Below, one piece after another: positions 25,555 to 33,021 of a stretch of DNA of 38,019 nucleotides; the stretch's first letter is position 1; each line of letters begins with the position of its first letter. A model generated the notes under the pieces. That model was not told the origin of the DNA. It saw nothing but the letters and a program-made list of their open reading frames with translations, and ran no database searches. Origin of the DNA: a virus; IMG/VR virus record IMGVR_UViG_3300021479_000045, positions 1 through 38,019 of that record; one strand, given 5' to 3'. Position numbers and translations under genes: made by a program.

Positions 25555-26403
25555 TTACCTCACTCGTCCTTCTTTGTGAGCCGCCATCAGTTCATTAAAT
25601 AACTCGTTCATCTTCGGATCGTTGGGAGTCTGACGCAATTTCTGGTCAACCATATCAACCGCCTGGTCAAATTCCGTCTTGTTCCATGTCTTGCGCCCAA
25701 AACCCACTCCGGGTGGTTGTCCCTGCACAGAAGCCGCTTGGCGTTTGGCGAGACTTCTATCGCCAATCCCCCGCGACTGCTGAAGCAAAGACCATGCAAT
25801 ATTAGCGGCCTTGGTAGGCCCTAAATTCGCAAGTCCATTATCGTTTATGATCTCGATTAAGTCTTCGTCATCTTCTGAGTGATAGCCTGGCTGAGAACGA
25901 ATGAATTCAGCGGCAGACGCCGTTTCTTGCTGTAAGGCCTGTTTGGCATATTCTTGTTCCCTCGTCGTGTCGAATCGCTCAAACATCGCATTCTGCATCC
26001 GTTCGAGCTTTTCTTCTAACTTAGCATCAAGAGTGCCTTCCGGGTCTTGCCAGAAGTTCGCGGGCGTTTTGGCAGGAGGAGGCTGATTCCGGCGATTCAG
26101 TTCTTCACGCAAATTCGCTAACTGGTCTGGCAAATCCCGCAGACTCGCTAACTGTTCACGTAATTCCCTGCGCTGAGCTCTCAGTTCTTTGACTTCGTCC
26201 TGAATACTCCAGCGTTTGCGCCCTTGACCCGTCTGTTCCTGGCCACTTTCGGTCGAAGGTTGCCCCTGACCGTCCTCAGACTGTTTTTGTTCAGGGACTG
26301 CATCCCCTGTACCAGTTGTCTGTTCTGGTGGTTCAGTCACGGCAGTTCCGGAATCAGAACCAATCGTGGTTCCTCCTCCGACGCTTAATACTGTGTCGTC
26401 CAT
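25555..26403 (-). CDS. scaffolding protein, 282 aa
   Basis: Acidic, Gln/Ser/Gly-rich disordered start (1-60), a strong Arg/Glu/Leu coiled coil (about 68-110, ELRAQRRELREQLASLRD), and a helical C-terminal region with a terminal basic patch (AAHKEGRVR). Directly upstream of the capsid gene. This architecture and position are standard for phage scaffolds, which template procapsid assembly and leave or are degraded. Confidence 0.75.
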   Translation of the reverse strand: MDDTVLSVGGGTTIGSDSGTAVTEPPEQTTGTGDAVPEQKQSEDGQGQPSTESGQEQTGQGRKRWSIQDEVKELRAQRRELREQLASLRDLPDQLANLREELNRRNQPPPAKTPANFWQDPEGTLDAKLEEKLERMQNAMFERFDTTREQEYAKQALQQETASAAEFIRSQPGYHSEDDEDLIEIINDNGLANLGPTKAANIAWSLLQQSRGIGDRSLAKRQAASVQGQPPGVGFGRKTWNKTEFDQAVDMVDQKLRQTPNDPKMNELFNELMAAHKEGRVR

Positions 26404-31395: not shown

Positions 31396-31555
31396 TTTGT
31401 TTCTCCCGTTCAGCCACCCGTAAATCATGAGGAGTCTGAACCCCCTTCGCACTCTTGGCCTGTTTCGCATTCACATGATCGTACCGCTCCTGCGCCGTCA
31501 TCTTCGACACATCATTCTTATCAACGACATCTGATTTCCTTTCGTGCTCGTTCAT
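31388..31555 (-). CDS. small charged protein, 55 aa
   Basis: ATGA overlap with the upstream gene and eight-base overlap with the 145-aa gene. Very charged, helical (SKMTAQERYDHVNAKQAKSA). Supported by coupling on both sides; no family recognised. Confidence 0.5.
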   Translation of the reverse strand: MNEHERKSDVVDKNDVSKMTAQERYDHVNAKQAKSAKGVQTPHDLRVAEREKQNG

Positions 31556-32136
31556 TTCGCCGCCTCCTCGCTCTCAAATGTTATGTCCACATTCTCAAAC
31601 TGATGGTGCACACGCTCAATCTTCGGAATGAGCCTGGCACCCAACTCCTGCCACGCCCCAATCTGTTCCCGCGTCGGTTTAAATTCCTCACGTTTCTCTT
31701 TAGGCTCTATCGCTTTAAAACATGCCGGACAAGACATCTCAATCTTCATGTCGTCCGCCCGATACGTCTCCACTTCATACTCATTAAACTGGCCATCAAA
31801 GCTACAGTACAAACACTTCGCAACGTAAAAAACCTTCTCCCCATCCGCACTCCACTTCCCAAACTGGTACCACCATTCCACCGTCAGGCCGTTCTTGACC
31901 GAAAACTCCTGCATCTTGCAAGTTACGTATTTACGGAACTTGCGGCTCTTCAGAAAGTTCTGACCCCACTCCTCCGTCTTGCCGACGCTGAGTCCGGCGG
32001 CGGCCACGTTCTTTAGCTTCTGAAGGTTTATCAAAAAGTTCATCTGGCTGGGACTAAATACAAACAACTGCCCCGCAACCGCTAAGCCTACCGTCTTGAC
32101 TTCTCCACCTATCGTTAAACTGACGCTGTTATCCAT
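31552..32136 (-). CDS. first late gene; possible small terminase with zinc ribbon, 194 aa
   Basis: Residues 28-100 (FSPSQMNFLINLQKLKNVAAAGLSVGKTEEWGQNFLKSRKFRKYVTCKMQE) have the helix-turn-helix plus helical layout of small terminases. A zinc-ribbon-like part follows with CLYC near 109-112 and CPAC near 137-140. First in the operon ahead of TerL, which is where TerS usually sits, but several small genes intervene. The ATG lies immediately after a T-run with no good ribosome site; an internal ATG at 32040 is possible. TerS is a tentative call. Confidence 0.45.
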   Translation of the reverse strand: MDNSVSLTIGGEVKTVGLAVAGQLFVFSPSQMNFLINLQKLKNVAAAGLSVGKTEEWGQNFLKSRKFRKYVTCKMQEFSVKNGLTVEWWYQFGKWSADGEKVFYVAKCLYCSFDGQFNEYEVETYRADDMKIEMSCPACFKAIEPKEKREEFKPTREQIGAWQELGARLIPKIERVHHQFENVDITFESEEAAK

Positions 32137-32139
32137 GGC

Positions 32140-32176
32140 AAAAAAAAGACCCCGCTCCGTTTCATCGGTCGCGGGG
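32140..32176 (-). terminator. intrinsic terminator in late leader, distal
   Basis: On the minus strand CCCCGC (32176-32171) pairs with GCGGGG (32155-32150), with an inner CCG/CGG stem, followed by TC and eight T (32147-32140). This is a textbook intrinsic terminator, placed four bases before the ATG of the first late gene. Confidence 0.75.
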
Positions 32177-32182
32177 GGATTG

Positions 32183-32233
32183 TCTGGGGAGACAAAAAAA
32201 GAGAGAGTCCCATAAATCGGTTCTCTCCCCAGA
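32183..32233 (-). terminator. proximal terminator-like hairpin with competing stem
   Basis: On the minus strand GAGAG/CTCTC plus CC/GG (about 32227-32201) is followed by seven T (32200-32194). A separate ten-base perfect inverted repeat (TCTGGGGAGA 32233-32224, TCTCCCCAGA 32192-32183) shares the upstream arm, so the two folds are mutually exclusive. The transcript from the promoter at 32241-32270 would start right at this element. Confidence 0.55.
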
Positions 32234-32240
32234 GTCGTCT

Positions 32241-32270
32241 ATTTATACAGCCTGTTTTCTAAATTGTCAA
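32241..32270 (-). promoter_or_regulatory. sigma70-like late promoter
   Basis: On the minus strand TTGACA (32270-32265), exactly 17 bases, then TATAAAT (32247-32241). A perfect -35 and near-perfect -10 at optimal spacing is the strongest promoter I see in the window. It lies over the 3' end of the 45-aa gene and drives the late operon through the two leader hairpins. It needs no phage sigma factor by sequence. Confidence 0.8.
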
Positions 32271-32712: not shown

Positions 32713-33021
32713 CTAGGATGCATCTTTCGGACCAAAGGACCCAGATTCTGTATCAATATCTCGAATTGTTCCACGTGGAACAATGGGCTTATCACTTTTC
32801 GATGAATCATTTTCTAGTCGCTGGTCTGGAATAAGCTTGCGGTTCTTTACCGTCTTGCCTTGCTTGTCCACCATAATCGTCACCTCCCACCAATCCTGAC
32901 ACCATCGACACCGCTCATAAGCATGCCAACCAACATCGTCCTGCCACCGTCGCATTATCACTTTGCGATGCCAACACTTTCCATTCACGTAAAATGGCAA
33001 GGAAGGCCTCAGATTGCCCAT
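32713..33021 (-). CDS. hypothetical protein carrying the parS-like site, 102 aa
   Basis: AAGGGGCACTA precedes the ATG. The N-terminal part is Trp/Cys/His-rich (KCWHRKVIMRRW, then CRWCQDWW), suggesting a zinc site. The C-terminal 45 residues look disordered; within them I-V-P-R-G-T-I is encoded by the 20-bp parS-like palindrome. The odd tail may exist to hold the DNA site. No family recognised. Confidence 0.6.
   Translation of the reverse strand: MGNLRPSLPFYVNGKCWHRKVIMRRWQDDVGWHAYERCRWCQDWWEVTIMVDKQGKTVKNRKLIPDQRLENDSSKSDKPIVPRGTIRDIDTESGSFGPKDAS
32765..32784. promoter_or_regulatory. parS-like ParB-binding site
   Basis: ATTGTTCCACGTGGAACAAT is a perfect 20-bp palindrome. Its core TGTTCCACGTGGAACA (32767-32782) fits the bacterial chromosomal parS consensus TGTTNCACGTGNAACA at all defined positions. 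Chance occurrence in 38 kb is far below one in a thousand. No parA or parB gene is present, so the ligand would be the host's ParB. Lies inside a coding sequence, as many chromosomal parS sites do. Confidence 0.8.

Follow-up and report, generated by a model that had tools for sequence, protein, structure and literature searches.

The record IMGVR_UViG_3300021479_000045 is a 38-kb sequence of an uncultured bacterial virus, and the stretch analysed (hereafter the window) comprised all 38,019 nucleotides. A promoter, a leader and two terminator-like hairpins (T1 and T2) lie just before the first late gene, and the whole arrangement reads on the minus strand. The features, in window coordinates, are:

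32713–33021, minus strand: gene for a zinc-ribbon microprotein (CxH...CRxC), a candidate regulator, upstream of the promoter
32241–32270, minus strand: predicted sigma70-type late promoter TTGACA-17-TATAAAT, predicted transcription start near 32235
32270–32265, minus strand: promoter −35 element TTGACA, followed by a 17-nt spacer
32247–32241, minus strand: promoter −10 element TATAAAT
32183–32233, minus strand: alternative 10-bp stem, its 5′ arm common to T1 (arms UCUGGGGAGA, 32233–32224, and UCUCCCCAGA, 32192–32183)
32194–32230, minus strand: T1, terminator-like hairpin with a U-run, −14.0 kcal/mol, z −2.8 versus shuffles (arms GGGGAGAG, 32230–32223, and CUCUCUCU, 32207–32200; U-run to 32194)
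32115–32213, minus strand: possible 32-codon leader reading frame (GGGGAGAG, 9 nt, then ATG at 32213)
32140–32176, minus strand: T2, intrinsic-terminator-like hairpin with UCU8, −16.9 kcal/mol, z −2.6 versus shuffles (arms CCCCGC, 32176–32171, and GCGGGG, 32155–32150; U8, 32147–32140)
31552–32136, minus strand: first late gene, encoding 194 aa with a CxxC...CxxC zinc ribbon, upstream of the gene for the terminase large subunit (TerL)

The 194-aa gene opens a conserved minus-strand block that also holds the TerL, portal and capsid genes. Residues C108, C111, C136 and C139 of its product were invariant in the relatives. The N-terminal part is helical, and small terminases appeared several times among the weak fold matches. 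Those to named small terminases had E values of 0.018 or worse and none reached 0.001, so the gene is labelled only as the probable terminase small subunit (TerS). No Shine-Dalgarno sequence was found close to its ATG in the window, where several other late genes have one, nor close to the TerS start in the genomes read. Downstream of the capsid gene lies a zinc-ribbon gene whose likely ATG is directly preceded by a strong hairpin (window 24166–24129, minus strand); in most relatives this gene also has a hairpin in that position, some with a U-run and some lacking it.

The near-consensus promoter claimed in an earlier note on this DNA is present at 32270–32241. The exact pattern TTGACA-N16-18-TATAAAT was expected 0.01 times in the window, a figure for a pattern picked after it had been seen; one promoter agreed with the consensus at 11 or more of the 12 positions, against 0.7 expected by chance. 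It shares the top promoter score within the window and is the best or near-best scorer in the window, L010, L011 and L013. None of the top-scoring promoters of the window on the late strand sits just 5′ of the capsid genes. One promoter scan overlooked TTGACA-17-TATAAAT because the −10 hexamer ends in A. With 0.7 expected, the promoter alone is statistically weak, and the case for it rests on conservation in relatives.

The same note had described two tandem hairpins, the second with eight T, and a ten-pair stem competing with the first; all were located. The fold of the 109-nt leader was more stable than those of 200/200 shuffles (z −2.86). T1 is only moderately stable, and the U-run of T2 stops 3 nt short of the TerS ATG (32136). 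Of 1000 dinucleotide-shuffled versions of the window leader, only one contained an exact stem as long as the alternative one (10 bp). Comparable stems of other sequence were found in L013 (22/1000 shuffles) and L014 (73/1000), and an exact stem in L004 was within chance in the shuffle test. A classical antiterminator stem forms before the terminator and prevents it. Here the 3′ arm lies downstream of the T1 U-run, so that the stem is completed only after T1, and T2 is left intact; a role as classical antiterminator is therefore not supported for it. The leader matched no RNA family or riboswitch in Rfam. The hexamer ACCGAT is found towards the tip of both hairpins (32221–32216 and 32169–32164, minus strand), and ATACCGAC occurs twice in the L004 leader; either repeat may be chance.

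The 32-codon frame passes through the 3′ arm of T1 and through T2 into the TerS gene. A ribosome starting at ATG 32213 might cover the T1 5′ arm, and translation through T2 might block termination, as in leader-peptide attenuation, with GGGGAGAG lying 9 nt before the ATG and 32 open codons spanning T2. As 32 open codons are common by chance, and no comparable frame preceded by a suitably spaced ribosome site was seen in the relatives read, we regard such attenuation as highly improbable.

Relatives were viral contigs found by TerS and TerL searches, 11 of them with a TerS relative; L006 is cut inside the TerS gene, and the upstream sequence was thus seen in 10/11. Five (L004, L010, L011, L012 and L013) contained a TTGACA-like promoter and a leader of 83–128 nt, with a hairpin at the start codon. 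A clear U-run accompanied this hairpin in 4/5, that of L013 being poor; L013 also has an upstream hairpin followed by UAUUUUGUUG. The hairpins folded far more stably than shuffles (z −5.7 in L010, −4.8 in L011, −6.6 in L012 and −5.9 in L013). L014 has a leader and a strong terminator-like hairpin (z −5.3), and its contig begins there, leaving the promoter off the contig. In L002, L005 and L018 the promoter lies ~7–12 nt before the start codon, with no leader and no terminator, and L007 has neither promoter nor leader. The sequence TTGACA-17-TA precedes TerS in L002, L004, L005, L011 and L018, and promoters close to it were seen in L010 (spacer 18), L012 and L013. The complete layout was thus seen in six genomes only (the window and five relatives), all metagenomic, with L010 and L011 closely related.

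A hairpin with a U-run at a possible start codon was found at 28 of 542 called genes, four being TerS. The proportions were 4/10 or 5/11 for TerS versus 24/532 for other genes (Fisher p 0.001 and 0.0001, both calculated with the pattern already known); in this count the overlap filter appears to have skipped the window TerS, and many of the non-TerS matches were at alternative internal starts. Annotated isolates of a phage collection gave no DNA match and no TerS match, and TerL identity was at most about 30%. One intergenic gap examined in Pelagibacter phage HTVC111P contained no such leader. A genome collection gave a single weak match, which was not usable as a relative.

Leader sequence was hardly conserved among the relatives, and structure and position were kept. 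The leaders of L010, L011 and L012 measure 83–84 nt and share the position of the hairpin and very nearly its axis; 13/20 positions showed a pair-keeping change of both bases in one or more of the three comparisons. That the hairpin holds its position and shape while many of its pairs change on both sides favours a gate over chance. In these three genomes, and in a hairpin of L002, two pairings are open to the 5′ arm (a): with its neighbour (b), closed by a GNGC loop, or with a further segment (c), completing the terminator. Folding of successive prefixes gave the a:b pairing ahead of the terminator in L011 and L012. Across 360 kb there were four such bistable GNGC sites, whereas three shuffles gave 0, 1 and 1. 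The L002 hairpin (L025:7230-7290) is intergenic, about 55 nt before a late gene that matches window 25555–26403.

The promoter and the hairpins are present with these sequences and positions, recur in related phages, and in three of them have covarying stems. Wherever both were present, the hairpin followed the promoter, the reverse of the order expected of an ordinary end-of-operon terminator; a terminator of the early operon was rejected as the main reading on the same ground. The best reading, to which we give a probability of about 0.52, is a gate on the late operon resembling λ PR′-tR′. Host RNA polymerase would start at the promoter with no need for a phage activator, and the intrinsic terminators of the leader would halt it immediately ahead of the TerS start codon, with a short RNA of some 95 nt as the product. 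Transcription of the late genes would follow late in infection, once a phage factor allowed the polymerase through. Termination at the hairpins, control of read-through and the part of a phage factor in that control are what we infer from the sequences; leaky, unregulated read-through would look the same. If the gate is real, an uncultured phage family without a recognisable Q gene gates its late operon in λ style, with the terminator of the gate joined directly to the first late gene at its start codon, and the conserved layout gives a definite place to look for a new antiterminator or RNA-binding microprotein.

The gate would be dispensable, since L002, L005 and L018 are leaderless without a terminator and L007 has neither element. 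In the main rival, the hairpins are a fixed attenuator, leaky terminators passing a constant share of the strong promoter to TerS and the late genes. The leaderless relatives, the limited stability of T1 in the window and the failure to find an opener (antiterminator) among the scanned window proteins all suit it. The entire late operon, capsid included, lies downstream, however, and should need high expression, and two stacked terminators would be a costly way of weakening a promoter. We consider fixed attenuation unlikely.

The short terminated RNA might itself be the product, a phage small RNA comparable to lambdoid PR′-tR′ transcripts. A promoter, a structured leader of about 95 nt and a strong terminator would make a complete small-RNA gene, but it is structure and position, hardly sequence, that the relatives conserve, which makes this very unlikely.

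Two known forms of antitermination had been invoked for the locus, λ Q and put RNA. The put RNA of phage HK022 is a hairpin RNA that binds RNA polymerase and confers resistance to termination, acting from early promoters on terminators further downstream. The present leader is likewise a structured nascent RNA beside a phage promoter; unlike put, its hairpins are themselves terminator-like. Of the λ-Q logic, the order of parts held, a promoter followed by terminators before the late operon and recurring in relatives. Sequence and fold both place an intrinsic terminator downstream of the promoter and before the late genes. As in the lambdoid PR′-tR′-Q system, a strong promoter is followed within about 100–200 nt by an intrinsic terminator, and a short constitutive transcript would be expected. 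The differences are that here the first gene is probably TerS, its start codon touching the terminator, and that neither a −10-like pause nor a recognisable Q was found.

Both Q and AlpA require a −10-like, sigma-dependent pause sequence in the initially transcribed region (PMC6606751, PMC9371919). Six leaders were searched over their first 30 nt for hexamers with A as second and T as last base; the best agreed at 2–3/6 positions, a result in which a degenerate site could be missed. Comparison by eye of the spacers between −35 and −10, where a Q or AlpA binding element would lie, revealed no shared element; Q proteins recognise unrelated sites. No Q-like gene had been recognised earlier; scanning of the window proteins (PHROGs; Pfam on ten) gave no antiterminator family, weak evidence in that Q proteins share little sequence. 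With no pause sequence above 3/6 and no Q-like gene recognised, the Q mechanism in its known form is unsupported. AlpA of Pseudomonas aeruginosa is a promoter-loaded antiterminator that bypasses tB (PMC9371919). The present locus shares with PalpB/tB a promoter and a downstream intrinsic terminator, but the pause element required by AlpA was not found and no AlpA-like gene was recognised. Comparison of window genes with those of the relatives, several of which are partial contigs, yielded no gene confined to the leader-bearing genomes.

The zinc-ribbon microprotein encoded upstream of the promoter had profile matches in the window, L002, L004, L005, L010, L011 and L012, with C16, H18, C38 and C41 invariant. 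The microproteins had no convincing match to any known family. As a regulator it is a lead only, since it also occurs in L002 and L005, both without a leader. L109, L104, L103, L114 and L117 encode, 5′ of the TerS promoter, a further small basic microprotein whose C-terminus has an LDREF-like motif; it had no significant match in the window.

The conserved UACGURAA of L010, L011 and L012 forms base pairs with UUUAUG, placing the start codon within an extended stem. The hairpin and U-run may accordingly be proposed to act at translation, either replacing the missing Shine-Dalgarno sequence or hiding the start codon until the microprotein opens the hairpin. For the U-run before a start codon, E. 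coli rnd was considered as a precedent and set aside. A translational role agrees with the conserved zinc microprotein upstream and with TerS having no Shine-Dalgarno sequence nearby in the genomes read, and phage Mu provides a model in Com, a small zinc-finger protein that opens the hairpin holding the mom start codon (PMC6483171). Both systems have a start codon in or beside a hairpin (clear in L010–L012) and a small phage zinc-finger protein; Com, however, is a CCCC finger that activates translation (PMC6483171), whereas the present protein is CxH...CxxC and its RNA binding putative. The local fold of T2 in the window leaves the AUG unpaired, the microprotein is found in the leaderless L002 and L005 and it resembles no known family convincingly, so that action at translation seems rather improbable. 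A further proposal, also improbable, is a new regulatory pair, in which the zinc-ribbon microprotein would bind the leader hairpin and open both terminator and start codon, with the GNGC structure of L010–L012 as a bistable switch.

A second leader was seen in the early region of four genomes. It consists of interleaved stems in the order S1a-S2a-S1b-S2b (pseudoknot-like), followed by a T-rich run, at these sites:

35360–35265 of the window, minus strand: early-region leader
near 3605 of L102, minus strand: early-region leader
near 7538 of L104, plus strand: early-region leader
near 9315 of L117, minus strand: early-region leader

It had no match in Rfam. A TTGACA-17-TA promoter lies 5′ of it in L002, L005 and L004, and the promoter of the window copy is unclear. 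Both stems are exact in each of the four genomes, with differing sequences, and the early-region leader could be a new regulatory RNA.
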